Assembly (NCBI GenBank): GCA_017455845.1
Contig: JAFSYY010000089.1
Span: forward strand, 1 to 38,281
From: Prevotella sp.
Lineage (GTDB): Bacteria; Bacteroidota; Bacteroidia; Bacteroidales; Bacteroidaceae
Length of the DNA stretch: 38,281 nt
Direction: 5' to 3'
Under the pieces are notes generated by a model. That model had not been told where the DNA came from. It did no database searches and saw nothing but the letters and a program-made list of their open reading frames with translations. Both the position numbers and the translations under genes were made by a program. Shown here in pieces: positions 4,766 to 30,438 of this stretch (within the stretch, counting starts at the first letter, position 1; the number at the start of each line of letters is the position of its first letter).

Positions 4766-6079
4766 ATGGGAAATTTAGTAGCGATTGTGGGACGCCCCAA
4801 CGTGGGAAAGTCCACATTATTTAATAGGCTGACCAACAGCCGCCAGGCCATCGTGAGCGACGTGGCCGGCACCACACGCGACCGGCAGTACGGCAAGTGC
4901 GAATGGACGGGGCATGAGTTCTCCGTCGTAGACACCGGCGGATGGGTGGTCAACAGCGACGATATCTTCGAGGAGGAGATACGCAAGCAGGTGGTCATCG
5001 CCACCGAGGAGGCCGACCTGGTGCTCTTCGTCTGTGACATCAGGAACGGTGTCACGGACTGGGACATGGACGTGGCACAGATTCTTCGGCGTGCCAAGAT
5101 GCCCGTGGCGCTGGTGGCCAACAAGGCCGACGACAACAAGGACCACTACGGCCAGTATGAGTTTTATAAACTGGGGCTGGGTGACCCTTATTGCATCAGT
5201 GCTGCCACGGGCAGCGGTACGGGCGACCTGCTCGACAAGGTGTTAGAGATGCTGCCCGACAGGCCCAACGACGACCTGGAGGAGGGCATCCCCCGCTTTG
5301 CCGTGGTGGGAAGGCCCAATGCGGGCAAGTCGAGCCTCATCAACGCTTTTATTGGCGAGGACCGCAACATAGTGACCGACATTGCCGGCACCACACGCGA
5401 CAGCATCTATACGCGCTACGATAAGTTTGGCTTCGACTTCTACCTGGTAGATACCGCCGGCATCCGCCGCAAGAACAAGGTCGTCGAGGACCTGGAGTTC
5501 TACAGCGTGATGCGCTCCATCCGTGCCATCGAGAACAGCGACGTGTGCATCCTGATGATTGATGCCACACGCGGCATCGAGGCTCAGGACATGAACATCT
5601 TCCAGTTGATACAGAAAAACAACAAGAGCCTCGTCGTCGTGGTCAACAAATGGGACCTGGTGGAGGACAAGTCGCAAATCGTTATCGACACCTTTGAGCA
5701 GGCCATCCGCAAGCGCATGGCCCCCTTCGTGGACTTCCCCATCATCTTTGCGTCGGCACTCACCAAGCAGCGCATCTTTCGCGTGCTCGAGACGGCCAAG
5801 CAGGTGTATCTGAACCGCAAGGTGCGCATTGGCACCACGAAACTCAACGAGGTGATGCTGCCCATCGTTGAGGCTACACCTCCCCCCTCCATCAAGGGCA
5901 AGTACATCAAGATTAAGTACGTCAGTCAGGTGCCCGACACGCAAATACCTACCTTTATCTTCTACGCCAACCTTCCGCAGTATGTCAAGGAGCCCTACCG
6001 CCGCTTTCTGGAGAACCAGATACGCCAGCACTGGACGCTGACAGGCTCGCCCATCAACGTGTTTATCCGTCAAAAGTGA
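4766..6079 (+). CDS. der: Ribosome-associated GTPase Der (EngA)
   Basis: Der is a 50S ribosome assembly factor with two tandem GTPase domains and a KH-like C-terminal domain. The first P-loop is GRPNVGKST near the N-terminus and the second is GRPNAGKSS near residue 182. Both domains have DTAG/DTGG and NKxD motifs (NKADD, NKWDL) and an 'AGTTRD' switch. The C-terminal KH domain ends in a basic stretch. I chose ATG 4766 because it starts right at [16 protein letters not shown], gives the usual ~437 residues, and lies just behind a good promoter. The open frame extends upstream to 4529 but has no family match there. The stop overlaps the GTG start of the lipoprotein gene by three bases, inside a repeat element. 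Confidence 0.97.
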
Positions 6080-6101
6080 AGAGTGAAATATTTTCTACCG
6101 C
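6074..6101 (+). repeat. Short copy of the GAGTGAA/CTACCGC repeat at the der-lipoprotein junction
   Basis: The junction reads AAGTGAAGAGTGAA, then ATATTTTCTACCGC. This is a shortened form of the element seen in cydA, porE and the sigma factor gene (GAGTGAA units ending in TTTGCTACCGC). It supplies both the der stop codon and the GTG start of the next gene. Confidence 0.65.
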
Positions 6102-6477
6102 TGTTGTCTCATTGGTGGCCTGCATGGTGGTTTGTGGTTGTGGCAAAGGCACGGCTGAAGAGCAGGCCATGAAGTCGGCGGCCGACTGTTATGCTAGTCT
6201 GCTGGAAGGCGACTATGACGGCTTCCTCGGCGGGCGTGCAGGCATGGACAGCATCCCCGACAGTTTCCGCGAGCAGTTGCTGGTGTCGTATAAGCAGTTT
6301 GTGCACCACCAGCAACAGGCACACCAGGGCATCAGGGCCGTTGAACCCGTCCGTGCCGTGGCCGACTCTTCGCTCAACGTGATGCAGGTGTTCCTCCTGG
6401 TCAGTTATGCTGACAGCACTCAAGAGGAAATCGTGGTGCCCATGGTAGAGCACAACGGCGAGTGGAAGATGAAATAA
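6076..6477 (+). CDS. Lipoprotein with DUF4878-like (NTF2-type) domain
   Basis: The N-terminus is a type II signal peptide: a hydrophobic core ([14 protein letters not shown]) followed by a Cys-Gly-Cys lipobox, predicting an envelope lipoprotein. The remaining ~110 residues ([36 protein letters not shown]) fit the small alpha+beta fold of DUF4878 proteins. Those are NTF2-like domains of unknown function in Bacteroidota. The start is GTG 6076, overlapping the der stop, so translation is probably coupled to der. The start codon and first residues (MKSEIFSTA) come from a copy of the dispersed repeat. The mlaE gene ends convergently 9 bases downstream. Confidence 0.8.
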
Positions 6478-6485
6478 TGCGGCGG

Positions 6486-7232: not shown

Positions 7233-7255
7233 CTTTTAATTACGCAATTTGCCTG

Positions 7256-7288
7256 CAAAATTACGAATAATCTGCAAAAAACCGCAAT
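7256..7288 (-). promoter_or_regulatory. Candidate mlaE promoter
   Basis: On the minus strand, TAATTTTG (7263-7256) matches the -7 element. An ATTG lies 21 nt upstream in the -33 position. Confidence 0.5.
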
Positions 7289-7333
7289 ATCCGTCTGCAA
7301 TAAGAGTTAAAAAAAGTCAAGCACTCATAAATC

Positions 7334-7361
7334 CTTCAACCTTCAACCTACAACCTTCAAC
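7334..7361. repeat. Heptanucleotide tandem repeat (CTTCAAC x4)
   Basis: Four consecutive 7-bp units, CTTCAAC, CTTCAAC, CTACAAC and CTTCAAC, lie just before the lptB -7 element (TAACTTTG, 7370-7377). They occupy the place where the -33 element should be. Confidence 0.8.
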
Positions 7362-7385
7362 CTTTTTTGTAACTTTGCACTCCCT

Positions 7386-8198
7386 ATGGATACAACGATC
7401 GAGATAAACAACGAGCCGGAGCATATCGTGCTCAGGACAGAAGGACTGGTGAAGCGCTATGGCAAGCGCACCGTGGTGAGCGATGTGAGTTACTATGTGC
7501 GCCAGGGAGAGATTGTGGGGCTGCTGGGACCCAACGGGGCCGGCAAGACCACCTCTTTCTATATGACCACCGGTCTGGTGCTGCCCAACGAAGGACATAT
7601 CTTCCTTGGCGACAAGGAGGTGACCGACTTCCCCGTGTACAAGCGTGCCCGTGCCGGCATAGGCTATCTGGCACAGGAGCCCAGCGTGTTCCGCAAGATG
7701 TCGGTAGAGGACAATATCCTCTCTGTGCTGGAGATGACGGGCAAGCCCCGCGACTATCAGCGTGAGAAACTGGAGAGCCTCATCAGCGAGTTCCGCCTGG
7801 AGAAGGTGCGCAGGAACAAGGGCGACCAGTTGAGCGGTGGCGAGCGGCGCCGTTGCGAGATAGCCCGCTGCCTGGCCATCGAGCCGAAGTTTATCATGCT
7901 CGACGAGCCCTTTGCCGGTGTGGATCCCATTGCCGTGGAGGACATCCAGTTTATTGTCTGGAAACTGAAGGACCGCAATATCGGCATCCTCATCACCGAC
8001 CATAACGTGGAGGATACGCTCTGTATCACCGACCGTGCCTATCTGCTGTTCGAGGGCCGCATCCTGTTTCACGGCACGCCCGAGGAACTGGCCGCCAACA
8101 AGATTGTGCGCAAGAACTATCTCACAGATTCCTTCGTGTTGCGTCAGAAGGACTTCCAGAAACTGGAAGAGGAACGAAACAAGAGTGAGGAGAGTTGA
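7386..8198 (+). CDS. lptB: LPS export ABC transporter ATP-binding protein LptB
   Basis: LptB is the cytoplasmic ATPase that drives LptFG and moves lipopolysaccharide to the outer membrane. The protein has Walker [10 protein letters not shown] (48-56), a Q-loop ([17 protein letters not shown]), the signature LSGGERRR (~150), Walker B FIMLDEP (~170) and the switch His in ITDHNV (~204). '[11 protein letters not shown]' and 'EPFAGVDP' are typical of LptB rather than other ABC ATPases. A -7-like TAACTTTG lies at 7370-7377, 9 bases before the ATG. At 270 residues it is longer than the E. coli protein because of short extensions at both ends. The last residues (KSEES) and the stop codon come from a GAG-rich repeat array. 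Confidence 0.95.
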
Positions 8199-8240
8199 GG
8201 GTTGAGGGTTGAGAGACTTTAGTTGAGAGTTGAGAGTTAA
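8194..8240. repeat. Heptanucleotide tandem repeat (GTTGAGG/GTTGAGA)
   Basis: Three contiguous 7-bp units (GTTGAGG, GTTGAGG, GTTGAGA), one degenerate unit (GACTTTA), then two more GTTGAGA units. The array begins inside the lptB stop codon region. Confidence 0.8.
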
Positions 8241-8344
8241 AAAATCGTAATCGTGCTGTTTTTACGCCATTTATGCGTAATTTTGCACGCTCAAATAATA
8301 AATCGGAAAATAAATTGTAAATCGTAAAATAGTTAATAACCAAG

Positions 8345-9697: not shown

Positions 9698-9709
9698 CAA
9701 TCGTCTGTT

Positions 9710-10836: not shown

Positions 10837-10890
10837 TGGCGAAGTACCTGTTTTGACAAGAATCTAACAACATTTATAAATTAAAAAACC

Positions 10891-14783: not shown

Positions 14784-16942
14784 CCTTATATATATGCGTG
14801 GGCGTGACCTGTCTGATGATGACGGGATGCGGTGCTGACTCGGCGATGAAGAAGGGCGACAAGTTCTTCGCGCTGGGCGAGTACTATGATGCTGCCGCGC
14901 AATACAAGAAGGCTTATTCCCAGACCAAGGCCAAAGACAAGCCTCTGCGCGGTCTGCGGGCCCTGAAGATGGCCGACTGCTACCGGCGCATCAACTACAC
15001 GCAGAAAGCCATCGCTGCCTACAATAATGCTGTGCGATACAAGCAGGCCGACACCACGGCCCTCTTCCACCTCGGACGGCTGCAACTGAAGAATGGCTCG
15101 TACAAAGATGCCGAGAAAACCTTCCTCACTTTAAGTGAAGAGTTAAGAGTGAAGAGTGAAAAATTTGCTACCGCTGCAATAAATGACTCTGTCAAGGCTC
15201 ATGGCTCATCTGTGAGAAAAACAAGTGCGGTAGCAAATTTTTCACTCTTCACTCTTCATTCTTCACTTATCAAGAACGGCCTCGAGTCGGCCCGCATGGC
15301 TCCGAAATGGAAGGCCGAGGCCGAGTATTCGGGCTATACGGTGAAGAAGCAGGAACAGTTTAACTCGCGCCGTGCCGAATACTCGCCCATGCTGGCCGGC
15401 GACGATTACGACCAACTCTTTTTCTCATCGACGCGCAACCAGGCCAAGGGCGACGAACTGAGCGGCATCACCGGCACAAAGTATGCCGACATCTTCTTCT
15501 CGCAGAAGGACGACAAAGGCAAATGGTCGAAGCCGGAAACCATAGAGAGCGAACTGAACAGCGAACTGGACGAGGGTGCCTGCGCCTTCACGCCCGACGG
15601 GAAGACTATGTACCTGACCGTTTGCAAGACCGACCCGGAGTATCCGCGCTATGCACAGATAGCCACCTCGCAGCGCAGTGATGCCTCGTGGGGCAAGGCC
15701 ACACCGCTGGAAATCACCAAGGACACACTGTCGACGTTTGCACATCCTGCCATATCGCCCGACGGCATGTGGCTCTACTTTGTCAGCGACATGCCCGGCG
15801 GCTTGGGCGGCTACGACATCTGGCGCATAGAAATCACCAGTCACGGACTGGTAGGCCTGGAGAATCTGGGCGAGCCCATCAACACCCCCGGTAACGAGAT
15901 GTTTCCCACCTTCCGTCCCAACGGCGACCTCTATTTCTCCAGCGACGGACATCCCGGCTTCGGCGGACTGGACATCTTCATTGCCAAGCCACAAGAAAGT
16001 GAGGAGTCAGGAGTTCTTCACTCTTCACTCTATGAATTAGAGCATCCCGGTGCACCGCTCAACTCGGCGGGCGACGACTTCGGCATGACCTTCGAGGGCG
16101 TGTACAACAGGGGATTCTTCTGCTCAAACCGTGGCGATGCCCGTGGCTGGGATCATATCTACTCGTTCGAGAAGCATGAGGTGGTGCAGACGGTGAAGGG
16201 CTGGGTATATGAGAAAGACGGCTACGAACTGCCGCAGGGACTGGTGTATATGGTGGGCAACGACGGCACCAACCAGAAACTGAGCGTCAAGGGCGACGGT
16301 TCGTTTACCGAGGTCATCAAGCCGGGTGTCGACTATGTGTTCCTCGGCACCTGTAAGGGTTTCCTGAATCATAAGGAGGAACTGCGCGTAGAGCCGGTGC
16401 TGGAGTCGGAAGAATATGTGCTGCAGTTCCCCCTGGCCTCGATCACGGCCCCCGTGCTGATAGAGAATATCTTCTACGACTTCGACAAGGCCACCTTGCG
16501 GCCGGAGAGCACCGAGGCTCTCGACAAACTGATAGAACTGCTGAATGAGAACCCGAACATCACCATCGAACTGAGTGCCCACACCGACTACCGCGGGTCG
16601 GCGGCCTACAACGAGCGGCTGTCGCAGCGAAGGGCCGAGAGCGTGGTGAACTATCTCATAGACCATGGCATTGCCAAGGACCGTCTGTCGCCTGTGGGCT
16701 ATGGCAAGATGAAGCCGAAGACCATCAAGCGCAAACTGACCGAGAAATACGATTGGCTGAAGGAGGACGACGTGCTGACAGAGGAATTTATCCTTGCCCT
16801 GAAAGACGAGGAAAAGCAGGAGATCTGCAACCAGTTGAACCGTCGTACAGAATTCAAGGTGCTACGCACCACCTACGGCATGGAAACCATAGGCTCTTCG
16901 CCAGTGAAGCATGAAGATGCTTCACCAGAGAGTGAAGAGTGA
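14771..16942 (+). CDS. porE: PorE-like OmpA-family lipoprotein (type IX secretion)
   Basis: Domain order matches PorE, the peptidoglycan-binding component of the type IX secretion machinery. A lipoprotein signal (LMMTGC, Cys20) is followed by TPR helices (~20-120), a PD40 beta-propeller (~190-450, with repeats such as 'AHPAISPDGMWLYFVSDMPG' and 'MFPTFRPNGDLYFSSDG'), a carboxypeptidase-regulatory-like domain (~470-545, VKGWVYEKDG) and an OmpA C-terminal domain (~560-650, FYDFDKATLRPES, HTDYRGSAAYNERLSQRRA). A 135-bp composite repeat is inserted in frame between the TPR and the propeller (residues 122-166). It adds SEELRVKSEKFATA and a hydrophobic 'FSLFTLHSSL'. The last residues also come from repeat sequence. 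The alternative is a general OmpA/PD40 lipoprotein not tied to secretion. Confidence 0.85.
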   Translation: MRNLSLYICVGVTCLMMTGCGADSAMKKGDKFFALGEYYDAAAQYKKAYSQTKAKDKPLRGLRALKMADCYRRINYTQKAIAAYNNAVRYKQADTTALFHLGRLQLKNGSYKDAEKTFLTLSEELRVKSEKFATAAINDSVKAHGSSVRKTSAVANFSLFTLHSSLIKNGLESARMAPKWKAEAEYSGYTVKKQEQFNSRRAEYSPMLAGDDYDQLFFSSTRNQAKGDELSGITGTKYADIFFSQKDDKGKWSKPETIESELNSELDEGACAFTPDGKTMYLTVCKTDPEYPRYAQIATSQRSDASWGKATPLEITKDTLSTFAHPAISPDGMWLYFVSDMPGGLGGYDIWRIEITSHGLVGLENLGEPINTPGNEMFPTFRPNGDLYFSSDGHPGFGGLDIFIAKPQESEESGVLHSSLYELEHPGAPLNSAGDDFGMTFEGVYNRGFFCSNRGDARGWDHIYSFEKHEVVQTVKGWVYEKDGYELPQGLVYMVGNDGTNQKLSVKGDGSFTEVIKPGVDYVFLGTCKGFLNHKEELRVEPVLESEEYVLQFPLASITAPVLIENIFYDFDKATLRPESTEALDKLIELLNENPNITIELSAHTDYRGSAAYNERLSQRRAESVVNYLIDHGIAKDRLSPVGYGKMKPKTIKRKLTEKYDWLKEDDVLTEEFILALKDEEKQEICNQLNRRTEFKVLRTTYGMETIGSSPVKHEDASPESEE
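15134..15268 (+). repeat. 135-bp composite inverted repeat element inside porE
   Basis: The left arm (15134-15174) has GAGTTAA/GAGTGAA heptamers ending AATTTGCTACCGC. The right arm (15227-15268) is nearly its reverse complement, starting GCGGTAGCAAATTT and running into CTTCACT heptamers. The arms are joined by a 52-bp spacer. The element is 45 codons long and keeps the frame open. Confidence 0.85.
15998..16030 (+). repeat. Small GAGT.../CTTCACT inverted repeat inside porE
   Basis: AGTGAGGAGTCAGGAG is followed directly by TTCTTCACTCTTCACTC, a miniature opposed pair of the same repeat arms. It is translated between propeller blades as 'ESEESGVLHSSLYELE'. Confidence 0.6.
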
Positions 16943-17789: not shown

Positions 17790-17806
17790 TATAGTATCTT
17801 ATAATT

Positions 17807-17883
17807 CTTCACTCTTCACTCTTCATTCTTCACTTTTCACTCTTCCCTCTTCACTCTTCACTCTTCTCTCTTCACTCTTCACT
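17807..17883. repeat. Heptanucleotide tandem array (CTTCACT, 11 units)
   Basis: Eleven contiguous 7-bp units: seven CTTCACT and four variants (CTTCATT, TTTCACT, CTTCCCT, CTTCTCT). The array fills the gap between cdsA and the ABC permease gene and overlaps the 3' end of the permease, supplying its last codons (SEE) and stop. Confidence 0.9.
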
Positions 17884-19125
17884 CACATGCTTCTTCCGGT
17901 TTTTCATCTCCCATATCCGCCAGATGGCATCCTGGCGTGTCAGGTAGATTTGGTAGCCATAGACCACGCAGGCCAACCAGAAATACAGGAAGACATGGAG
18001 CCACAACACACGCAGTTCGGTGGAGATGTCGCTGAGCGAAGCCCCCATGCTGTTGAGGCGCATGTATGCCTTTACGCCAAAGGTCGACGGGAACACCCAC
18101 GACACGCCCTGCCAGAAGCCGGGTATGTTGCTGCCTGGCCAACTCACGCCAGTGAGGAATAGCAGCGGCACGGACACAAAGACCATGAGCAGCATCACGT
18201 TCTCACGATATTTCACCATGCACGACACCACCATGCCGAAGAATATGCATGCCAGCGTATAGGGCAGCATGAGCAATAAAAGTGGGCGCCACGTGGCCAG
18301 TTGGGGGAAATGGAACAGTTTCGGCACCACCACCACGAGCCATGCACCCATTAGGGCATAGATCATGAAATAGCATAGCGACTTGCCAAAGACAATACGG
18401 AACACGTTCTGATAGGGACGGCTGATGGGAATGAGTTGCTTATAGCGGTTGGTCTCGCGGGCCGTGCCGGCCGACAGGCCGATGCCCAGCACCAAGGTCT
18501 GCTGCAAGATGAGCATCAGCACGCCCGGCAGCATAAAGGAGCCGTAGCCGCCCGAGGGGTTGAAGATAGCCACCTCGGCATAGTTCAGCGGACGGGCTGC
18601 GATAGCCTTCTCACGGGTGGTGAGAGGAGAGAGGTGGGAGGTGGGAGGAGAGATCTCCGTGCCCATCTGCATCGACACCAGTTGCGCCGTCTGGAAGATG
18701 GCCTTATAGGTCAGCATGAGGCTCATGTCGCAGTACACGCTGACGGTAGCCTGCTGCATGCGGTTGATGTTGTCGTCGAAATCGGAGGGAATCAAATAGA
18801 TGCCTCTCACCAACTGTCGGCTCACCAGCGACTTGGCCTCGTCCAGATCCTGGGCATAGTAGGCGATATGCACGTCGGGCGAGGCGTCGCACATTCTCAG
18901 GAACTGTCGCGATAGTCCTGTGTGCGAGTCGTCGACCACGGCCACCGGCACTTCATGCACCGTCTCGTTGTTGTAAATCCACGAATAGAGCAGCGGATAG
19001 ACCAGGGGCACGATGATAAAGAAGATGAGCACTCCCTCGTCCTTGAACACCTGCTTCATTTCCTGTCGCCAGATATAGAAGGTGTCGTCAATTCTCCTTC
19101 TGAAACTATTACGGTATGTAGACAT
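17872..19125 (-). CDS. ABC-2 type permease (drug/macromolecule exporter), second of two
   Basis: The protein has 417 residues with the ABC2_membrane_3 layout. A first helix (VLIFFIIVPLVYPLLYSWIY) is followed by a large periplasmic domain (~60-210) and five C-terminal helices ('GVLMLILQQTLVLGIGLSAG', 'MVFVSVPLLFLTGVSWPG'). It overlaps the upstream permease by 17 bases, so the two are probably co-translated and form a heterodimer. A short repeat-derived insertion (PPTSHLSPLTT) lies in the periplasmic domain. No ABC ATPase is encoded in this operon. The substrate cannot be told from sequence. Confidence 0.88.
   Translation of the reverse strand: MSTYRNSFRRRIDDTFYIWRQEMKQVFKDEGVLIFFIIVPLVYPLLYSWIYNNETVHEVPVAVVDDSHTGLSRQFLRMCDASPDVHIAYYAQDLDEAKSLVSRQLVRGIYLIPSDFDDNINRMQQATVSVYCDMSLMLTYKAIFQTAQLVSMQMGTEISPPTSHLSPLTTREKAIAARPLNYAEVAIFNPSGGYGSFMLPGVLMLILQQTLVLGIGLSAGTARETNRYKQLIPISRPYQNVFRIVFGKSLCYFMIYALMGAWLVVVVPKLFHFPQLATWRPLLLLMLPYTLACIFFGMVVSCMVKYRENVMLLMVFVSVPLLFLTGVSWPGSNIPGFWQGVSWVFPSTFGVKAYMRLNSMGASLSDISTELRVLWLHVFLYFWLACVVYGYQIYLTRQDAIWRIWEMKNRKKHVSEE
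18620..18653. repeat. Heptanucleotide repeat inside the permease gene
   Basis: The 7-bp units GTGAGAG, GAGAGAG, GTGGGAG and GTGGGAG, plus a partial unit. They are translated on the minus strand as 'PPTSHLSPLTT'. Confidence 0.7.
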
Positions 19126-20278: not shown

Positions 20279-20354
20279 TCTATAGCGGTAGCAAATTCTT
20301 CACTCTTCACTCTTCATTCTTCATTCTACACTCTTCACTCTTCACTCTTCACTT
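20272..20354. repeat. CTTCACT array with GCGGTAGCAAAT edge between permease and HlyD genes
   Basis: Heptamers CTTCACT, CTTCACT, CTTCATT, CTTCATT and variants follow GCGGTAGCAAATT, the same edge as in porE and cydB. On the minus strand the array provides the stop codon of the HlyD-like gene and the GTG start of the permease. Confidence 0.85.
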
Positions 20355-21338: not shown

Positions 21339-21348
21339 ATCTTTTTAA

Positions 21349-21444
21349 TTCACAATTCACAATTCATAATTCATAATTCACAATTCATAATTCAAAATAA
21401 AAAGCGGCAGCACATTTTTCACTTCTCACTTCTCATTTCTCATT
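21349..21444. repeat. Heptanucleotide arrays (TTCACAA/TTCATAA, then TTCACTT/CTCATTT)
   Basis: Seven contiguous 7-bp units (TTCACAA x3, TTCATAA x3, TTCAAAA; 21349-21397) are followed by AAAAAGCGGCAGCACA, a weak form of the GCGGTAGCAAA edge. Four more 7-bp units (21417-21444) run up to the TolC stop codon. Confidence 0.85.
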
Positions 21445-22997
21445 TAGTACAGTGTTCCCAGTGACTTCTGCAGGTCTACCTGCGAGAGTTTCACGTTAAT
21501 CTGGGCATCGATGAGTTGCGACTGCGCCTGCAGCCAGGCCGTCTGTGCCTCCATCACCACGGTAGGTGCGATGACACCTTCGGCAAAGCCGAGGTTGGCG
21601 GTGCGCAGGTTCTCGTTGGCTCGCTCGATGCCAGTCTTGGCCATGACCAGTCGTTTATTGGCCTCCTCCACCTTGAACGTGTTCTGGTTCACCTGCAGTT
21701 CTATCTTCTCGCGGGCCTCCTCACGCTCCAGGTTGGCAATGGCCGTGGCACCCTTCGATGCCCGCACCTTATAGGCCACGTCGCCCCAGTTCCATAGTGG
21801 CACGCGCACCATCACGCCCACATTCCAGAAGCCTCCAAACTTTTTCTGAAAACCATTGAGCACGTTAGGGTTGCTCACCACATAACCGCCCGTTAGGGCC
21901 ACCTGCGGCAGATTGGCCGCCTTCAGGATGTTGGTGACCTGTTTCGACATGCCCACGGCATTGTCGAGCATCTTCAGTTCGGGCCGGTTCTCCACGGCAC
22001 GCTCCACGTCCAACTGCGGCTGCAGCGTCACCACGGCCAAGTCCTCTATATCTTCGTCGGCCAGCGTCACCTGCTCGTTCATGGGCAGCCCCACCATCTG
22101 GCAGAGCAGCATCTTCGACAACACCAGGCCGTCGTCCACCTTCTGCAGGGTCATCTCGGCCTCGTTCACCTTCACGCTGACGCTCAGGCCGTCGCTGCGC
22201 GTAGCCACGCCCTCGTCAATCATCTTCTGGACATCTTGATCAAACTTCCGAATCAGTTCCAGATAACTCTCGGCCAGCGATTTCTTATGTTTCAGCGACA
22301 CCACCTGCCAGTAAGCCTGGTCGGTGGCATAGATAATGCCCTGCCGCCGCACGTCGGCCGAATTGGCGGTAAAGTTCTCGTTGATGTCGGCCAGTTTGTT
22401 CAGTGCTATGATGCTGCCACCCATGAAGACGGGCTGGGTAACCATCACTGAACCAGCAAACACATGGCGGGTGTCGGTATTCAGCGCATCCACCAGGTCC
22501 TGGCCTACTGCGTTCAGCGTTGTGGCCATGCCTGCGGTGGTCTGCTCCATCGACTGCTTCAGGTCGCCGGCCATCTGGGCATAGCCTTCCATGGGCATGC
22601 CCGTCTGCCCCAGTATCTTGCCTACGCCACCCACAAAATTCTCCAGGCCCGTGGCCAATGGCTGCATGCTCGACACCGTGGCAGTGCCCAGGTGTGGCAG
22701 CATGGTTTTCTGCTGGTCGTTGAGCAGCGACACGGGCTCGCTGGTGTACTGATAGGTGCCGATGGCACTGAGATGAGGCAGGTATTTGGTGCGTGCCGAC
22801 TTTTTTATGTTGGCGGCCACATCCTGTTTCAGCCTCGAGACCCCCAACTGCTTATTGTTGCGCAGGGCCATGGCACGGCAACTGTCAAGGCTCAATAGTT
22901 GCTGCGCACCGGCAGTTAAAGGTAAAAGGGTAAAGAGGTAAAAAGGTAAGAACCTTTTTGCCGCGTCTTTCACCATTTGATGACCTTTCATATACAT
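21444..22997 (-). CDS. TolC-family outer-membrane efflux protein
   Basis: The protein has about 500 residues and the typical duplicated outer-membrane efflux protein layout, with long helices such as 'ALRNNKQLGVSRLKQDVAAN' and 'LDVERAVENRPELKMLDNAV'. A helical C-terminal half ends in 'QINVKLSQVDLQKSLGTLY'. It forms the trimeric outer-membrane duct of the exporter. The start is uncertain: 22997, 22991 (MKGHQ) or 22976 (MVKDAAKR). The last gives the best signal peptide, MVKDAAKRFLPFYLF plus TLLPLTAGA. The hydrophobic core of that signal peptide is encoded by TTTTTACC-type repeat units. The coiled-coil gene ends 28 bases upstream and probably shares the promoter. Confidence 0.92.
   Translation of the reverse strand: MYMKGHQMVKDAAKRFLPFYLFTLLPLTAGAQQLLSLDSCRAMALRNNKQLGVSRLKQDVAANIKKSARTKYLPHLSAIGTYQYTSEPVSLLNDQQKTMLPHLGTATVSSMQPLATGLENFVGGVGKILGQTGMPMEGYAQMAGDLKQSMEQTTAGMATTLNAVGQDLVDALNTDTRHVFAGSVMVTQPVFMGGSIIALNKLADINENFTANSADVRRQGIIYATDQAYWQVVSLKHKKSLAESYLELIRKFDQDVQKMIDEGVATRSDGLSVSVKVNEAEMTLQKVDDGLVLSKMLLCQMVGLPMNEQVTLADEDIEDLAVVTLQPQLDVERAVENRPELKMLDNAVGMSKQVTNILKAANLPQVALTGGYVVSNPNVLNGFQKKFGGFWNVGVMVRVPLWNWGDVAYKVRASKGATAIANLEREEAREKIELQVNQNTFKVEEANKRLVMAKTGIERANENLRTANLGFAEGVIAPTVVMEAQTAWLQAQSQLIDAQINVKLSQVDLQKSLGTLY
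22919..22956. repeat. TTTTTACC-type repeat encoding the TolC signal peptide core
   Basis: The plus strand reads GGTAAAAG, GGTAAAGA, GGTAAAAA, GGTAAGAA in near-tandem ~8-bp units. On the minus strand they encode FLPFYLFTLLPL, the hydrophobic core of the signal peptide. A related stretch (TTACTTTCTTACC, 22998-23035) sits in the gap just before the gene. Confidence 0.7.
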
Positions 22998-23963: not shown

Positions 23964-23970
23964 GAAAATG

Positions 23971-24253: not shown

Positions 24254-24269
24254 CGCCTAAAGTACAAGT

Positions 24270-24355
24270 CTATCGACTTCTAACTCCCTACAACTCTATC
24301 GACTTCTAACTCCCTCTAACTCCTTCTAACTCCCTCTAACTCCTTCTAATTCCCT
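24270..24355. repeat. CTAACTCCCT-type 10-bp tandem repeat before cydA
   Basis: Two copies of a 20-nt unit (CTATCGACTTCTAACTCCCT at 24270-24289 and 24296-24315) are followed by four 10-bp units alternating CTAACTCCTT and CTAACTCCCT, with one variant. The period is 10 bp here, not 7. Confidence 0.85.
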
Positions 24356-24380
24356 GTAATCAATAAAAACCTAAAACAAT

Positions 24381-26066
24381 ATGACAAACCTACTATTAAA
24401 CATCGATGCCGGTATGATTGACTGGTCAAGGGCGCAGTTTGCACTCACGGCCATCTACCACTGGCTCTTCGTACCGCTGACGCTTGGCCTGGCGGTTATC
24501 ATGGGCATTGCCGAGACCATCTATTACAAGAAACGTACCGACTTCTGGAAGGCGACGGCCCAGTTCTGGCAGCGGCTCTTCGGTGTGAACTTCGCCATGG
24601 GCGTAGCCACGGGCATCATCCTCGAGTTTGAGTTCGGCACCAACTGGAGCAACTACTCCTGGTTCGTGGGCGACATCTTCGGCGCACCGCTGGCGGTGGA
24701 GGGTATCGTGGCTTTCTTCATGGAGAGCACCTTCGTTGCCGTGATGTTCTTCGGCTGGAAGAAGGTGTCGGCTGGCTTCCACCTGGCCTCTACGTGGCTC
24801 ACCGGCCTGGGTGCCACTATCTCTGCCTGGTGGATCCTCGTGGCCAACGCGTGGATGCAGTATCCCGTGGGATGCACGTTTAATCCTGACACGATGCGCA
24901 ACGAGATGACCTCGTTTGCCGAGGTGGCCCTCTCTCCTTTCGCCATCGATAAGTTCTGCCACACGGTCATCTCTTCATGGATTATCGGTGCCGTCTTCGT
25001 GATTGCTGTCTGCGCCTGGTATCTGCTGAAGAAACGCCACACGCAGTTGGCCGTGCAGAGCATCAAGATTGCTGTCATCGTGGGATTTATCGCCGCTTTG
25101 GGCGCTGGTGCCACAGGTCATAAGAGCGGTCAGACCGTAGCCCAGGTGCAACCCATGAAACTGGCTGCCATGGAGGCTCTCTATAACGGCGGCCATGAGA
25201 TGGATCTCACCATGGTAGCGTGGGTGAACCCCCTGGAGCAGCCCGACTATACCAAGCAGGCTGAGCCCGCCATGAAACTGGCTATACCCTACGCCCTGTC
25301 GATGATGGCCACCAACACGCTCGACGGCTATGTGCCCGGCATCAACGACCTGCTGAACGGCTATACGAAGGAGGACGGCACTGTAGAGCCCTCTGCCGAC
25401 GAGAAGATAGCCCGCGGTAAACAGGCTATCCAAGCCCTTGCCGCCTACCGCCAATTAAGTGAAGAGTTAAGAGTGAAGAATGAAGAATTTGCTACCGCCG
25501 AACAGAAAGCGAAAGCCGATTCACTGCTCGCCTCTCACCTCGCCACTCTCAACGACAACTACCAGTACTTCGGCTATGGCTATGTGAAGGACAAGAAAGA
25601 CCTGGTGCCGCCTGTCGCCGTCAATTTCTGGGCGTTCCGCACGATGGTGGGTCTGGGATGTCTCTTCATTCTGTTCTTCGGCGTGGTGCTTGTCCTGTTC
25701 TTCGACATCCCGTTCGTGTCGTTAGTCATACGCCGACTGCTCTCTGCCATTGGACTGATTGACGAGAGGCAGTCAGACAAGGCCGACCTCAACACCATCA
25801 TGCCAAAATGGCTCTGTTGGGCTGCCATCGCCATGGTGCCGCTGGCTTATATCTGTTCGGAGAGCGGCTGGCTCGTGGCTGAGTTCGGCCGTCAGCCCTG
25901 GACTATCCAGGATATGCTGCCTACGTGGGCTGCCGTCAGCGACCTGCATTCATCGAGCGTCATGATTACCTTCTTCCTCTTCCTCATCCTCTTCACCACT
26001 ATGCTGGCTGTAGAGGTCAGCATCCTGCTGAAGCAGATTAAAAAGGGACCGAAAGTTAAGAGTTAA
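24381..26066 (+). CDS. cydA: Cytochrome bd ubiquinol oxidase subunit I
   Basis: CydA carries the haems and quinol site of cytochrome bd, which reduces O2 to water at very low oxygen. This fits a microaerotolerant anaerobe. The N-terminus has 'SRAQFALTAIYHWLFVPLTL' with the haem His. 'GWLVAEFGRQPWTIQ' is the GRQPW motif. About nine hydrophobic segments are present. The protein has 561 residues. An in-frame repeat (residues 360-373, SEELRVKNEEFATA) sits before the last helices, in a loop. The final residues (VKS) come from a GTTAAGA array. An intact frame indicates a functional gene despite the insert. Confidence 0.97.
   Translation: MTNLLLNIDAGMIDWSRAQFALTAIYHWLFVPLTLGLAVIMGIAETIYYKKRTDFWKATAQFWQRLFGVNFAMGVATGIILEFEFGTNWSNYSWFVGDIFGAPLAVEGIVAFFMESTFVAVMFFGWKKVSAGFHLASTWLTGLGATISAWWILVANAWMQYPVGCTFNPDTMRNEMTSFAEVALSPFAIDKFCHTVISSWIIGAVFVIAVCAWYLLKKRHTQLAVQSIKIAVIVGFIAALGAGATGHKSGQTVAQVQPMKLAAMEALYNGGHEMDLTMVAWVNPLEQPDYTKQAEPAMKLAIPYALSMMATNTLDGYVPGINDLLNGYTKEDGTVEPSADEKIARGKQAIQALAAYRQLSEELRVKNEEFATAEQKAKADSLLASHLATLNDNYQYFGYGYVKDKKDLVPPVAVNFWAFRTMVGLGCLFILFFGVVLVLFFDIPFVSLVIRRLLSAIGLIDERQSDKADLNTIMPKWLCWAAIAMVPLAYICSESGWLVAEFGRQPWTIQDMLPTWAAVSDLHSSSVMITFFLFLILFTTMLAVEVSILLKQIKKGPKVKS
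25457..25498 (+). repeat. GAGTGAA/TTTGCTACCGC repeat element inside cydA
   Basis: Heptamers GAGTTAA and GAGTGAA are followed by GAATGAA and AATTTGCTACCGC. The sequence is almost the same as the left arm of the element in porE. It encodes SEELRVKNEEFATA in frame. Confidence 0.85.
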
Positions 26067-26096
26067 GAGATAAGAGTTAAGAATTAAGAGTTAAGA
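26055..26096. repeat. GTTAAGA heptanucleotide array at the cydA-cydB junction
   Basis: Six contiguous 7-bp units (GTTAAGA x4, GATAAGA, ATTAAGA) begin inside the last codons of cydA, provide its stop codon (26064-26066) and end 10 bases before the cydB ATG. Confidence 0.9.
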
Positions 26097-26106
26097 AATA
26101 TAGACT

Positions 26107-27342
26107 ATGAGTTACGAATTCTTACAACACTACTGGTGCTTCATCATATCACTGCTGGGAGCACTGCTCGTCTTCCTGATGTTCGTGCAGGGAGCCAACT
26201 CCATGATATTCTCCTTGGGAAAGACCGACCAGGAGCGGCGTATGCTTATCAACTCTACAGGCCGCAAGTGGGAGTTCACGTTCACCACACTGGTCACCTT
26301 CGGCGGTGCCTTCTTCGCATCGTTCCCGCTGTTCTACAGTACCTCCTTCGGCGGTGCTTATTGGCTGTGGATGCTCATCCTCTTCTCGTTTGTGCTACAG
26401 GCCGTGAGTTATGAGTTCCAGAACAAACTGGGCAATTTCCTTGGCGCCAAGACCTTCCAGTGCTTCCTCGTATTCAACGGCATCGTAGGGCCGTTGCTCC
26501 TGGGCGGTGCCGTAGCCACGTTCTTCGAGGGTTCGAACTTCATCGTTGTCAAGGAGAACTTGGTTAATTCTCAATTGTCAATTGTCAATTCTCAATTAGA
26601 AATCACTCCTGTGATTTCCCATTGGGCCAATGCCTCCCACGGCCTCGATGCCCTGCTCAACCCCTGGGTGCTCGTCTTCGGACTGGCCGTGCTCTTCCTG
26701 GCCCGCACACTGGGCATCCTTTATACGATGAACAATATTGATGATGAAGTTATCCGCACGCGTGGCCGCTACCAGTTGGCAGGCTCTGCCACCGTCTTCG
26801 TGGTGCTCTTCGTGGCCTATCTGGTGCACCTGCTCCTCAAGGACGGCTTTGCCTACGACGACAGCGGCACCATCTTCATGGAGCCCAACAAATACCTGCA
26901 CAACGCCCTTGAAATGTGGTATCTCACCGTCGTGATGCTCATCGGCGTGGTACTCGTCCTCTACGGCATCCTCAGAGAACTGTTGAGCGGTAGCAAATTC
27001 TTCACTCTTCACTCCATTCCCGACCAATGGTCGCCTACCCGTAGCCTTTCACTCTTCACTCTACCCGGCATCTGGCCTGCCGGCATCGGCACCGTACTCA
27101 CCGTGACACCTTTGCTGCTCCTATCGGCCTGGAACCATACGGCCTACTATCCCTCTACGGCCGACCTGCAGTCATCGCTGACGCTCGAAAACTCATGCAG
27201 CAGTTACTTCACCCTCAACACCATGTTCTGGGTATCGCTGCTCGTGCCCTTCGTCCTGGCCTATATCGTCTATGCCTGGCGCAAGATTGACAGCAAGAAG
27301 ATTGACCGCGCCGAGATAGAAGCCGACGACCACGCCTACTAA
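26107..27342 (+). CDS. cydB: Cytochrome bd ubiquinol oxidase subunit II
   Basis: CydB is the second membrane subunit of cytochrome bd and pairs with CydA. The N-terminus 'LQHYWCFIISLLGALLVFLM' and 'VQGANSMIF' fit the family, and about eight or nine hydrophobic segments are visible. At 411 residues it is longer than usual (~380). Two in-frame repeat insertions explain the excess. One is an AATTCTC/AATTGTC array (residues 154-164, NSQLSIVNSQL). The other is a GCGGTAGCAAAT/CTTCACT element (residues 294-319, GSKFFTLHS ... SLSLFTLPG). Both fall in loops. The stop is followed by the GH43 gene after 46 bases. Confidence 0.95.
   Translation: MSYEFLQHYWCFIISLLGALLVFLMFVQGANSMIFSLGKTDQERRMLINSTGRKWEFTFTTLVTFGGAFFASFPLFYSTSFGGAYWLWMLILFSFVLQAVSYEFQNKLGNFLGAKTFQCFLVFNGIVGPLLLGGAVATFFEGSNFIVVKENLVNSQLSIVNSQLEITPVISHWANASHGLDALLNPWVLVFGLAVLFLARTLGILYTMNNIDDEVIRTRGRYQLAGSATVFVVLFVAYLVHLLLKDGFAYDDSGTIFMEPNKYLHNALEMWYLTVVMLIGVVLVLYGILRELLSGSKFFTLHSIPDQWSPTRSLSLFTLPGIWPAGIGTVLTVTPLLLLSAWNHTAYYPSTADLQSSLTLENSCSSYFTLNTMFWVSLLVPFVLAYIVYAWRKIDSKKIDRAEIEADDHAY
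26566..26598 (+). repeat. AATTCTC/AATTGTC heptanucleotide repeat inside cydB
   Basis: Four 7-bp units (AATTCTC, AATTGTC, AATTGTC, AATTCTC) and a partial unit. They encode NSQLSIVNSQL in frame. Confidence 0.85.
26986..27063 (+). repeat. Composite repeat with GCGGTAGCAAAT edge inside cydB
   Basis: GAGCGGTAGCAAATT with two CTTCACT units is followed by a small hairpin (CGACCAATGGTCG) and a second run of CTTCACT units. Two half-elements flank a short stem. The 78-bp stretch is a multiple of three and remains open. Confidence 0.8.
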
Positions 27343-27388
27343 GCCGATGGAGTTTCTTCCTCCTTTCTCGAACCTCAACAGCAAAAAC

Positions 27389-29083
27389 ATGAAGAGTAAT
27401 AATATGAAGACCATGCTCATGGCAGCCATTTGCTGCATGGCAGTGATGACTGGGTGCGCCCCCCAACCGACTGGAATGAAAGAGACCGCACTCACCACGC
27501 CGGGCAACCCCTTCCTGCCCCTCTGGGAACACATACCCGACGGCGAGCCCTACGTGTTTGAAGACCCCGACAACCCGGGCCAGTATCGCGTCTATCTCTA
27601 TGGCTCGCACGACAGCATGGTTGATGGCTATTGCGGCCGCGAGCAGGTGGTATGGTCGGCACCCGTCGACAGCCTCACACAATGGCGCTATGACGGCGAG
27701 ATATTCTGCGTTGACAAGAACGCCAACGGCGAACTGCTCGATGCTAACGGTCTGGCCGACGTGCTCTATGCGCCCGACGTGACGCTGGTGACAGGTCCCG
27801 ACGGCGAGAAGACCTATTACCTCTATCCCAACAACCAGGCGGACGGGCGCAACGGCATGGTGTGCAAGAGCAGCCGCCCTGACGGGCCCTTCGAGGTGTG
27901 CAACTGGAGCAAGGACAACCCTAACGAGACCGACGGCGTGCTGCGCTTCGACCCTGCTGTGTTTGTAGATGACGACGGCCGCATCTACGGCTACTGGGGC
28001 TTCGAACGCTCGTATGCCGCCGAACTCGACCCCGCCACGATGGCCACGGTGAAGCCCGGCACCAAGATTGTGGAGGACATGGTATCCGGCCGCAACCAGG
28101 AGGGCGTGTTCAGTTTCTTCGAGGCTTCATCTATCCGTAAGATCAAGGATAAGTACGTCTTCATCTATAGCCGCTTCACTAAAGACGGCGAGTTCGGCCT
28201 GCCCGTGTCCAACTACACCCTGGCCTATGCCTACAGCGACCATCCGCTGGGGCCCTGGACCTACGGCGGCACCATCATCGACGGCCGTGCCCGTGATGTC
28301 AACGAACAGGGCGACACCATTGCCACCGCCACCATCGACGGCAACACCCACGGCAGCATCTGCGAGATCAACGGACAGTGGTGGGTGTTCTACCACCGTC
28401 AGACGGGCACCGACGAGTATGCCCGCCAAGCCATGGTGGCGCCCATCGACGTGAAGGTTGAGGAGGGCGCAGGCGGCAAGGTGGAGATCTCTGAGGGCGA
28501 ATATACGTCGGAAGGCTTTTCGACGGAGGGCCTCAACCCGCTGGAGCGCCATTCGGCCGGCATCGCCTGCTGGTACACCGGACCCAGGACGGCCATCCAC
28601 GAATGGCCCAACAACACCTTCTCCGGCTCGTATGTGGCCTCCGACTACGGCACCGAAGACAAGTTCTCGGAACCCTACAACCTGCGAAACAACACCAACC
28701 CCGTGGTCAACAATACCGACGGCTCTATCGTGGGCTATAAGTATTTCAACTTCACCGAGACACAGGCCACCGAACCTCGTACCTCGCACCTCGCACCTCG
28801 AACTTCGCACCCCGCACCTCGCATCCTGCTTTACCTCGTGCCTGCCGGCATCGACGGACGTATCAGCGTGATGATTGACAGCCCGTGGGAGTCGCGCGGC
28901 GGCGTGTTGCTCGGTACCATCGACCTCAAGGCCGACATGCTGCAGGAGCCCACGGTCATGACGGCCGACCTGCCTGCCTTGGCAAACTATTCCGGCAAGC
29001 ATGCCCTCTTCTTCGTCTTCTCGTCAGACGTCAAGGAGCGGTCAATCTGTAAACTCAAGGATTTCGTATTCGAAAAAAAATAG
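27389..29083 (+). CDS. Glycoside hydrolase family 43 lipoprotein
   Basis: GH43 enzymes hydrolyse arabinose- or xylose-containing polysaccharides. After a lipoprotein signal (MLMAAICCMAVMTGCAPQ) the five-bladed propeller shows the family's acidic residues: a base Asp in 'EPYVFEDPDN', an Asp in 'VLYAPDVTLV', and a Glu acid in 'FEASSIRK'. A C-terminal beta-rich domain follows (~430-565). I chose ATG 27389; an earlier start at 27347 adds a non-signal leader, and 27404 is also possible. Repeat sequence (CCTCGCA units) inserts 'PRTSHLAPRTSHPAPR' near residues 463-479. The specific substrate cannot be told. There are no SusC/D genes nearby. Confidence 0.85.
   Translation: MKSNNMKTMLMAAICCMAVMTGCAPQPTGMKETALTTPGNPFLPLWEHIPDGEPYVFEDPDNPGQYRVYLYGSHDSMVDGYCGREQVVWSAPVDSLTQWRYDGEIFCVDKNANGELLDANGLADVLYAPDVTLVTGPDGEKTYYLYPNNQADGRNGMVCKSSRPDGPFEVCNWSKDNPNETDGVLRFDPAVFVDDDGRIYGYWGFERSYAAELDPATMATVKPGTKIVEDMVSGRNQEGVFSFFEASSIRKIKDKYVFIYSRFTKDGEFGLPVSNYTLAYAYSDHPLGPWTYGGTIIDGRARDVNEQGDTIATATIDGNTHGSICEINGQWWVFYHRQTGTDEYARQAMVAPIDVKVEEGAGGKVEISEGEYTSEGFSTEGLNPLERHSAGIACWYTGPRTAIHEWPNNTFSGSYVASDYGTEDKFSEPYNLRNNTNPVVNNTDGSIVGYKYFNFTETQATEPRTSHLAPRTSHPAPRILLYLVPAGIDGRISVMIDSPWESRGGVLLGTIDLKADMLQEPTVMTADLPALANYSGKHALFFVFSSDVKERSICKLKDFVFEKK
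28775..28823 (+). repeat. CCTCGCA heptanucleotide repeat inside the GH43 gene
   Basis: Seven contiguous 7-bp units (CCTCGTA, CCTCGCA x2, CCTCGAA, CTTCGCA, CCCCGCA, CCTCGCA). They encode a Pro/Arg/Thr/Ser/His-rich insertion in frame. Confidence 0.9.
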
Positions 29084-29149
29084 CACGACGTGCAACTTTT
29101 CTGTTTTTGGTTACGTCTAACGGATAGAAAGTAACAAACAAAAACAGAT

Positions 29150-29839
29150 ATGAATATGAAAAAAGTCTTATGGACTCTGGCCTTTGTACTTCCTTTGGCA
29201 ATGGCCGCGCAGGGTGCCTCGAACAACGCACCTCGCACCTCGCACCTCGCACCTCGCACCTCGACCACCGCACAGGCCGACACTACCGACGAGGTGGAGG
29301 CATTCTCTGACACCACATCCATCGACTCGGTGCAGGCCGGTGTCGCTGACCCCTGGGATGATTTCAACGACGACTGGGACGACTGGGAAGAGGCCGATGC
29401 CAACAGCATCATGAACGGTATCGGCATCAGCGGCGACGGGCTGGCCGGCGTGCTCGGAGGCATGCTTACCGTAGCGGCAATCCTCTTTATCATCTTCGTA
29501 CTTGCACCAGTGGCGCTGGTAGGCATCATACTCTATTTCGTCTACAAAAACCGTAAGGAACGCATGCGACTGATGGAGGCTGCCCTGAAGAGCGGCAAGC
29601 AGATACCGCTCGACGTGACGGGCACACCCTATATGAGAAACGACCAACTATGGAACAAAGGCATCAAACAGTTGTTCCTCGGCTTAGGGCTCGCCATCCT
29701 CCTCTGGGTAGTGCTCGGTAAACTGGGGCTGGCCATCGGTGCACTCATCGCCCTCATTGGTTGCGGCAATCTGGTCATTGCCCATAACTATAAGCAGAAG
29801 CAGAAGGAAAAGGAACTCAACGACCGCATTTTTGGATGA
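29150..29839 (+). CDS. Membrane protein with DUF6249-like domain
   Basis: The protein has 229 residues. A signal-like N-terminus (KKVLWTLAFVLPLAMAAQG) is followed by a low-complexity acidic stretch (~40-85, DDFNDDWDDWEEAD) and three hydrophobic helices ('VAAILFIIFVLAPVALVGII', 'LFLGLGLAILLWVVL', 'LAIGALIALIGCGNLVIA'). The layout matches a Bacteroidota membrane family often found next to ECF sigma factor genes. The stop overlaps the sigma factor start by four bases, so the two are co-translated, and a regulatory link is plausible but unproven. Repeat units CCTCGCA encode 'APRTSHLAPRTSTT' near residues 28-39, just after the signal peptide. Confidence 0.8.
   Translation: MNMKKVLWTLAFVLPLAMAAQGASNNAPRTSHLAPRTSTTAQADTTDEVEAFSDTTSIDSVQAGVADPWDDFNDDWDDWEEADANSIMNGIGISGDGLAGVLGGMLTVAAILFIIFVLAPVALVGIILYFVYKNRKERMRLMEAALKSGKQIPLDVTGTPYMRNDQLWNKGIKQLFLGLGLAILLWVVLGKLGLAIGALIALIGCGNLVIAHNYKQKQKEKELNDRIFG
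29231..29265 (+). repeat. CCTCGCA heptanucleotide repeat inside the membrane protein gene
   Basis: Four CCTCGCA units and a CCTCGAC unit, the same unit as in the GH43 gene about 410 bases upstream. Confidence 0.9.
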
Positions 29840-30438
29840 ACAGCGATATCTCTCTCGTGACGCAGGTGGCGGTATTTCACAACAGGAGGGCCTTCGACCT
29901 ACTGGTGCGCAAATACCAGTCGCCTGTGCGAAGGTTCCTCCTGAACCTGACGCTGGGCAACGAGAGCCTGAGCGACGACCTCGCACAGGACACCTTCATC
30001 AGGGCCTACGAACACATCACGCAGTTCAAGTGCATAGCGTCTTTCCAGACATGGCTCTTCCGCATCGCATACAACGTGTTCTACGACTATAAGAGAAAGG
30101 AAAAAAGAAGTGAAGAATTAAGAGTTAAGAGTGAAAGATTTGCTACCGCGCCACTATCTGTTGCGGCAGCAAATTCTTGCGTCCCTTCGGTAGCAAACGA
30201 CCAGAGGTCGAGCGTTTCACTCTTTACTCTTAACTCTTCACTCAATATGGACATCAGCACCGCCCTAGGCATCCTCAAGGAGGAAGAGCGTGCCTGCGTC
30301 ACGCTGCAACTCATCGACGGCTATCCCATCGCCGACATTGCCGCCATGCTCAACATGCCCGAGAATACGGTGAAAAGCCATATTCGACGGGGAAAAGAAA
30401 AACTGACTACTTACTTAAAACAAAACGGTTATGGCTAA
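29836..30438 (+). CDS. ECF-type RNA polymerase sigma factor
   Basis: The protein has 200 residues. The sigma-2 region is residues 1-85 (HNRRAFDLLVRKYQSPVRRF, 'LAQDTFIRAYEHITQF', 'SFQTWLFRIAYNVFYDYKRK') and the sigma-4 region is 137-195 ('EEERACVTLQLIDGYPIADI', 'LNMPENTVKSHIRRGKEKL', a helix-turn-helix). The usual short linker has been replaced by a 45-residue repeat-derived insertion (residues 92-136), although both DNA-binding regions are intact. It is overlapped by four bases by the upstream membrane gene and overlaps the DUF5056-like gene by eight. The three genes probably form one regulatory unit. Confidence 0.92.
   Translation: MNSDISLVTQVAVFHNRRAFDLLVRKYQSPVRRFLLNLTLGNESLSDDLAQDTFIRAYEHITQFKCIASFQTWLFRIAYNVFYDYKRKEKRSEELRVKSERFATAPLSVAAANSCVPSVANDQRSSVSLFTLNSSLNMDISTALGILKEEERACVTLQLIDGYPIADIAAMLNMPENTVKSHIRRGKEKLTTYLKQNGYG
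30108..30243 (+). repeat. Composite inverted repeat element in the sigma-factor linker
   Basis: The left arm has GAATTAA/GAGTTAA/GAGTGAA heptamers and ends GATTTGCTACCGC. The right part has CGGTAGCAAACGACC, a small hairpin (GACCAGAGGTC) and CTTTACTCTTAACTC heptamers. The order matches the element in porE, and the frame is kept. Confidence 0.85.

Follow-up and report, generated by a model that had tools for sequence, protein, structure and literature searches.

Why should one contig of a Prevotella genome hold so many tandem arrays that share a period of 7 bp while differing in the sequence of their units? The question is raised by a 38,281-nucleotide stretch of Prevotella sp. (GenBank assembly GCA_017455845.1, contig JAFSYY010000089.1; the whole stretch is called the window here), which is contig 41 of a 124-contig, 2.43-Mb assembly with a completeness of 68%. 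An earlier reading made from the letters alone (the sequence-only reading) had listed such arrays, described their units as unrelated or loosely related and proposed a process that makes or amplifies 7-bp units. Tandem Repeats Finder (TRF) recovers each of these arrays at period 7, at or within ~25 bp of the place where that reading had put it. Our analysis points to an answer in two layers, to which we give a probability of about 0.62: a dispersed palindromic element whose heptamer arms can change and whose loop can invert, similar to the Rickettsia palindromic elements (RPEs) when it lies within genes, would sit on top of a lineage-specific excess of heptamers.

The sharp excess at 7 bp, which a tandem repeat check had been predicted to reveal, is clearly present. 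The genome sample comprises 422,664 bp, namely the window together with up to 20 kb from the start of each of 20 further contigs among the 124, and is non-random because most of the further contigs came from those listed with TCTTCACTCTTCACTCTTCAC matches, though the places of the matches themselves were not chosen. Period 7 accounts for 142 of the 406 TRF rows in this sample, compared with 0 of 19 and 0 of 28 in its second- and fourth-order Markov copies, and the density of arrays per 100 kb is 33.6 at period 7 versus 0.9, 3.5 and 6.6 at periods 6, 8 and 9. With a lower score threshold and with periods 7, 14 and 21 merged, the sample holds 176 arrays, at 0.42 per kb and with a median length of 33.5 bp, and across the whole 2.43-Mb genome TCTTCACTCTTCACTCTTCAC has 199 + 171 matches at up to 2 mismatches versus 40 + 57 for its reversed control. 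This excess depends on lineage: period-7 rows per 100 kb number 12.1 in G320 and 10.8 in G065, two other genomes of the genus, 6.7 in a pool of 15 further genus genomes, each represented by 20 kb (10 of the 20 rows come from G009 alone), and 1.1 across the order (3 rows in 261 kb, from stretches of 20 genomes, several of which contributed short contigs only). Between sister genomes, the length differs in 16 of 32 aligned arrays of periods 7, 14 and 21 (some entries being the same site) and in 5 of 80 aligned arrays of periods 9, 12 and 11/22. The sampled period-7 arrays have 46 canonical units. Against a description of these as unrelated, the units, judged by eye, mostly have a G-poor strand and a loose pattern in common, and many arrays are arms of a single element.

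This element was recognised through the frequent words beside the main array, where the commonest unit, CTTCACT, often adjoins a 13-mer core, GCGGTAGCAAATT. The core together with its array is matched 45 + 31 times in this genome, versus 0 times for the reversed control. A search of 60 genomes detected the combination in 13, this one among them; all 13 belong to the same genus, and the reversed control again scored 0. Two such halves are often arranged face to face, and the resulting palindrome, AATTTGCTDCCGC-loop-GCGGHAGCAAATT with a loop of 12-42 bp, was detected in 41 of the 299 genomes of the genus, this genome being one of the 41 (controls 0). Slightly shorter cores retrieved the palindrome from 13 of 349 genomes of the family, belonging to 3 of 30 genera, and, in an order-wide draw of 295 genomes, from this genome itself only (1/295). 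Among the GTDB contigs, at least 119 stretches carry the hairpin; the matches listed include Prevotella communis E15-14, and their titles name Prevotella, Prevotellaceae, Bacteroidaceae or Bacteroidales, with one unspecified bacterium. Viral contigs gave no match to the hairpin with a 12-42-bp loop, and carriage of the element by phages was rejected on this result. Loop lengths range from 12 to 60 bp among the hairpins examined (18-31 bp in 114 of 141), with 29-bp loops typical of the genomes of genus g38, and the loops of different copies within one genome look homologous by eye.

Both arms of the hairpin carry heptamers, and pairing extends beyond the core (up to 2 mismatches) by a median of 18 bp, reaching at least 14 bp in 110 of 141 hairpins. 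In the 141 distinct hairpins, arm positions 1, 8, 15 and 22 are complementary in fractions of 0.79, 0.80, 0.62 and 0.64, versus 0.42, 0.45, 0.38 and 0.43 in one random re-pairing of the arms; near-invariant positions behave alike in true and randomly re-paired arms, and the covariation is that of the variable first base of the heptamer. A similar arrangement is observed for other units too: nearby opposite array pairs run from G-rich to C-rich in 17 of 18 cases, with units complementary at 6 or 7 of 7 positions in 11 of these 17, and another 14 nearby array pairs have the same orientation. The window contains two complete elements. One lies in frame in porE (15132..15269) and consists of a G-rich heptamer arm (15134-15160), a core on the minus strand (15162-15174), a loop (15175-15226), a core on the plus strand (15227-15239) and a C-rich arm (15241-15267); folded as DNA, positions 15130-15272 give -45 kcal/mol (z -12.25). 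The other (30109..30243) lies in frame in a sigma factor of the extracytoplasmic function (ECF) type, between sigma-70 regions 2 and 4, with a G-rich arm (30109-30132), cores on the minus (30137-30149) and plus (30163-30175) strands, an extended inner part and a C-rich array (30219-30243).

Orthologous sites differ in the presence of these copies. The porE search matched 38 other genomes, of which G021 and G027 match weakly elsewhere only, leaving 36 (G010 gave no match). These 36 genes align in two pieces around residues 123-165, and the element is absent from 35 of them, with a gap of 0-36 bp versus ~126 bp here; the 36th, in G014, has a different, larger insert (558-bp gap) in a locus (L069) without the core. 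A half element in cydB (26987..27062, plus strand; core 26987-26999, arrays 26999-27014 and 27048-27062) is surrounded by residues ~295-320, which are missing in all 20 other sequences with a match on either side of them: the match is split in 14 and continuous but ~30 residues shorter in 6, and G039 matches only in part. The cydA region around another half element (25458..25498, minus strand; heptamer arm 25458-25486, core 25486-25498) is variable, the window having SEELRVKNEEFATA where its nearest relatives are shorter, and from the sequences this copy is likely an insertion relative to the orthologues as well. In a near relative (L226), the porE copy is absent and the sigma-factor site is filled as here, with a different loop. 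Arrays conserved at the same positions across distant species, which the sequence-only reading had named as evidence against its proposal, were not seen for the intragenic porE and cydB copies; the site in the sigma factor gene is common to the window and a single near relative. Finally, in 169.7 kb aligned between G320 and G065, a 78-bp in-frame hairpin in a G065 gene is absent from G320, through either a gain or a loss. The host gene is presumably an o-succinylbenzoate synthase; no family passed the strict threshold used.

Genes are in general avoided, since only 30 of 168 distinct long-flank hairpins lie in open frames of at least 200 codons, versus 896 of 1380 random positions. Those that do lie within long frames follow a strict pattern. 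One phase is used by 29 of the 30, and all 29 encode the same kind of peptide, for example SEELRVKSEEFATA-xPSAEGxA-AAANSSLFTLHSSL, or a SEEFATA...ANSSLFTLHSSL form. The loop length is 1 mod 3 in 30/30, compared with 39/138 elsewhere (p 2e-14), and the inverted loop would stay open in 28 of the 30, compared with a fraction of 0.718 for shuffled loops (p 0.004). None of 40 hairpins with 29-bp loops is intragenic. A family search of 20 host open reading frames (ORFs) identified RNase R (two sites), threonine synthase, phosphoglucosamine mutase, arginine-tRNA ligase (ArgRS), DNA primase (DnaG), CobB, CTP synthase, a hybrid two-component sensor and others, with an incomplete, below cut-off match to RecG; hosts of the in-frame element include genes that are essential in other bacteria.

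The loops also turn round. The comparison considered 224 hairpins with flanks (many fetched repeatedly), with pairs at least 99.9% identical dropped as duplicate records. Fifteen orthologous sites from different genomes have flanks of at least 90% identity, and their loops are inverted in 5, the same in 9 and unresolved in 1. Both orientations are accordingly found at 5 of 14 resolvable orthologous pairs (L162/L175, L126/L156, L265/L275, L383/L386 and L371/L374), between sister genomes and not within a strain. In the example from G320 and G065, the arms adjoining the core are identical, the loop is turned round and one base is changed. Below 90% flank identity there is one clear inversion (L375/L422, 82.9%) and two pairs that are clearly the same (L134/L240 and L163/L178); most pairs could not be resolved, and the script rule scores some others as the same, mainly at one conserved spacer. 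Assembly error is a possible source of inversions in metagenomes; elements of ~100 bp should fit within the read length. Separately, hairpins start within ~130 bp of contig ends at G327:C9, G327:C37, G325:C49 and G326:C63, where the assembly probably broke at them.

We would explain these observations as follows. The first layer is a lineage-specific heptameric microsatellite excess with many units and mostly one G-poor strand, whose changes in length may arise by replication slippage together with local rearrangement. In the second layer, many CTTCACT-type arrays are arms of the dispersed palindromic element, in the order G-rich heptamers, AATTTGCTDCCGC, loop, GCGGHAGCAAATT, C-rich heptamers. 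Such an element can fold into a long hairpin, its arms being kept complementary by the observed covariation, and strand exchange through the stem, either in a cruciform or by template switching at the fork, would turn the loop, as seen in the inverted pairs, and keep the arms matched. Most copies reside outside long open frames. The intragenic ones nearly all share a single phase, their loops measure 1 mod 3 and their arms contain no stop codons, so that the host protein would carry a shared peptide. In that phase the two strands of the palindrome encode peptides of one kind, and inversion leaves most loops open. In our view this DNA is for the most part selfish or neutral, and spacers and protein loops tolerate it; its spread by a trans-acting enzyme that recognises hairpins is our best guess. 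A bolder version, which we offer tentatively, regards it as a palindromic parasite built for reading frames, whose loop flips would be tiny protein-altering switches of ~7-8 residues in conserved, partly essential proteins that are left unbroken; the heptamer arms would leave the C-rich arm open in all three frames, and a loop of 1 mod 3 would make the two strands read alike.

Nevertheless, several points weigh against the palindromic element as we describe it. No target-site duplication is seen by eye in porE or in the G065 gene, and the ends of the element are ambiguous because heptamer edges blur them. Insertion relative to orthologues was checked in few host genes (porE, cydB and one G065 gene, with cydA likely), and the genomes are nearly all metagenome assemblies, one per species, giving no read-level view of polymorphism. 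The openness of loops in both directions may reflect their shared descent, since loops of 1 mod 3 outside long frames are also open when inverted (32/39). Four orthologous pairs are included among the 30 long-frame hairpins, which therefore represent ~26 sites, and the one read in another phase (L409:3018) may not be in a real gene. One spacer, acpP-fabF by our reading, keeps the hairpin in 9 loci, which could mean function. As for the heptamers, many arrays lack the core, and the element leaves the period of 7 itself unaccounted for. Period-8 arrays vary as often as those of period 7 (7/13) and the single aligned 10/20 array also differs (1/1), so length instability is not special to 7; moreover, multiples of 7 make up only 3 of the 16 array length differences, unlike the prediction of plain 7-bp slippage. 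An autonomous form with a long loop was not found among the fetched loci, to which that scan was confined; the search for a core at both ends returned one 105-bp and one 1,488-bp pair, both chance-like, and no convincing autonomous copy was retained. Finally, the core at up to 1 mismatch is found in 0 of 50 loci of the candidate transposase considered next (~1.5 kb flanks, best matches only).

The first alternative is that the element is of the repetitive extragenic palindromic (REP) or miniature inverted-repeat transposable element (MITE) type and is moved in trans by a REP-associated tyrosine transposase (RAYT)-like Y1 (HUH) enzyme. Possible but doubtful, it is kept because of the co-occurrence of such genes with the hairpins. 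A Y1_Tnp search finds one protein in this genome, of 376 aa and RAYT-like, with a REP_Tyr_transpos score of 35.5 bits (cut-off 80). Among the 299 genus genomes, 175 encode relatives of this protein, a single genome giving as many as 12 matches. The 175 comprise 37 of the 41 hairpin-positive genomes and 138 of the 258 hairpin-negative ones (Fisher p 4e-6; rows read by eye), an association uncorrected for phylogeny. Hairpin substrates and the lack of target duplications would also suit HUH enzymes. The flank test, in contrast, gives no support to the RAYT as the element's own transposase, although this is a weak test because only 15 of the 50 loci are in hairpin-positive genomes, two of them with a 2-mismatch core (4/50 overall). 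Nor is a GTAG or CGTC tag conserved in the core, whose fifth base is T, C or A (GCGGHAGC). A HUH enzyme is thus a candidate and no more. The gene itself (L091, G000:C35:4050-5177) encodes a long C-terminal part and carries an internal tandem, partly palindromic stretch. Compared with the REP families and bacterial interspersed mosaic elements (BIMEs) with RAYTs (PMC3733652), our element likewise forms dispersed short palindromes, single and paired, in genomes with RAYT-like genes, but its core lacks the conserved GTAG tag and was not seen beside the fetched transposase loci.

Selected regulatory hairpins, such as terminators, attenuators, mRNA stabilisers or protein-binding sites that arise repeatedly, seem unlikely as a general explanation, although array placement partly invites it. 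With genes called approximately, the 147 arrays divide into 79 intergenic and 68 coding ones, compared with a coding density of 85%, so that arrays fall both between and inside genes, as had been noted from the sequence, with an enrichment between them. Where the genes on either side were both called (67 arrays), they are co-oriented for 59 arrays, the G-rich strand being the sense strand in 45 of the 59 (raw counts, without a background share of such spacers), and the hairpin retained in the acpP-fabF spacer is what a regulatory role would predict. A terminator would be harmful, however, in frame within genes essential in other bacteria, and the loops flip and vary. Within genes, the sense strand is C-rich in 49 of the 68 coding arrays, which stop codons in the G-rich strand may explain.

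An origin as ordinary microsatellites only, with slippage making heptamer arrays independently, perhaps because of the polymerase footprint, and the core a side issue, is similarly improbable for the whole set. It is hard to reconcile with the same 13-mer adjoining arrays at dozens of sites with reversed controls at zero, with the covarying arms, with the loops that look homologous within a genome and with the one phase shared by 29/30 copies. The reading is thereby weakened by the core and remains viable for the arrays that lack it, for which the sharp excess, the 46 canonical units and the length differences between sister genomes, also seen for period-8 arrays, are what it would predict. 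Heptameric repeats are over-represented in many bacteria, with polymerase-footprint slippage proposed, and in Xanthomonas and Nostoc (GGGNATC) they prefer spacers of co-oriented genes, inverted array pairs also being mentioned (PMC4692102); TAACTGA repeats occur in Beggiatoaceae, cyanobacteria and five Bacteroidetes (PMC4679880). An excess of heptamers is therefore in itself nothing new among bacterial microsatellites, having been reported from Xanthomonas, Nostoc, Microcystis and Beggiatoaceae (PMC4692102, PMC4679880). The sequence-only reading knew of no described system for Prevotella, and we found no earlier description for that genus in the open-licence PubMed Central literature. With these microsatellites our arrays share a dispersed 7-bp period, a location mostly outside genes and a variable length; they differ in the many units per genome, the fixed core, palindromic pairing, homologous loop and in-frame copies. 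The proposed process making 7-bp units is consistent with the sharp, lineage-bound excess and the sister-genome differences, but we found no dedicated system, period 8 is equally unstable, whole 7-bp steps account for few of the length differences, and the arrays that stand out most belong to the arms of a fixed-core palindrome.

Least likely of all is a phase-variable inverton, in which a site-specific recombinase recognising the core flips the loop: inverted repeats and loop inversion fit, but loops of 20-30 bp look too short for the synapsis of two recombinase sites. The invertons known from gut bacteria, where DNA between inverted repeats occurs in both orientations (PMC11892184), resemble our 5/14 sister-genome sites in this respect and differ in that our loop is short and no recombinase gene is tied to it, none having been searched for. 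Plastid trnH-psbA inversions of the same size, in which inverted repeats of 18 bp enclose a 25-27-bp loop whose orientation varies both among and within close relatives, are tied to hairpins, the consulted part of that source mentioning no recombinase (PMC2903610); the present inversions are, by contrast, bacterial, affect a single repeat family at several places scattered over the genome, and occur within genes as well.

No description of the element in Prevotella was found in the open-licence PubMed Central literature. Among its closest counterparts are the RPEs, small palindromes that lie in frame in many unrelated genes and are translated into a shared peptide (PMC10969869); 29/30 of our long-frame copies likewise use one phase and encode one kind of peptide. 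The likeness is one of working rather than membership, and the heptamer-array arms, the invertible short loop, the location mostly outside long frames, the hosts (mostly rumen Bacteroidales assemblies) and the size (cores and loop ~40-90 bp versus ~150 bp in RPEs) set the present element apart. BrickBuilt, a MITE of Porphyromonas gingivalis with a 23-bp minisatellite unit that is always intergenic (PMC4596501), is likewise a non-autonomous Bacteroidales element with a tandem repeat, but the repeat lies inside BrickBuilt, whereas the stem of our element is built from 7-bp units and genes contain some of its copies.

Other features of the window include further partial copies. A degenerate half element (6070..6101, minus strand) has its core at 6089-6101 with 2 mismatches, followed by ~two TTCACTC units, and a half element between two minus-strand ORFs (20285..20353, plus) has its core at 20285-20297 followed by (TCTTCAC)8; a third half element (21404..21445, plus) combines a variant core, GCGGCAGCACATT, with (CATTTCT)4.7. 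The remaining heptamer arrays on the plus strand are (CCTTCAA)4.6 upstream of an lptB-like gene with no core seen (7333..7364), (GAGAGTT)7, which starts at the end of that gene and runs on into the spacer that separates it from the trigger factor gene (8190..8238), a short (TCTTCAC)2.4 within porE (16015..16031), (TCTTCAC)11.3 in the spacer of two minus-strand ORFs and overlapping the end of one (17806..17884), (AATTCAC)7.4 upstream of a minus-strand HlyD-like gene (21346..21398), (AGTTAAG)6.1 from the last cydA codons into the cydA-cydB spacer just 5' of the cydB ATG (26054..26096), (AATTCTC/AATTGTC)4.6 within cydB (26566..26597), where no insertion is shown because relatives align across the array, and two coding arrays, (ACCTCGC)7.1 (28774..28823) and (CGCACCT)5.3 with a 21-bp frame (29217..29273). 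A weak array of TCTCTCC/CCCACCT-type units (18615..18653, minus; 72-84% matches) lies within ORF 17872-19125. Rfam at the gathering threshold gave one tRNA and no other family in the window.

Repeats of other periods were also observed. A second class has a period of 11/22 bp (in the sample, period 22 accounts for 23 rows vs 2 at 20 and 1 at 23); 28 of its 31 merged arrays are outside called genes, with window examples at 31184-31310 and 32779-33026; a 10/20-bp array of TCTAACTCCC lies upstream of cydA (24263-24359), and 8.8 copies of a 12-bp unit, CCCGACAAGCAC, lie at 32354-32459 within ORF 31456-32709. Other dispersed palindromic words in the sampled genome are GACCTAGGTC, with ATCGATCTGCC-type spacers, and GAATACAAGTTGTATTC.

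The element joins heptameric microsatellites, in-frame palindromic insertions and hairpin-loop inversion, which we found described apart. It carries a warning for rumen Prevotella, whose assemblies and gene annotations may break or misread at hairpin sites, and it offers a natural system, with copies that can be counted, in which to study the flipping and growth of bacterial palindromes and the tolerance of conserved enzymes for a standard inserted peptide.

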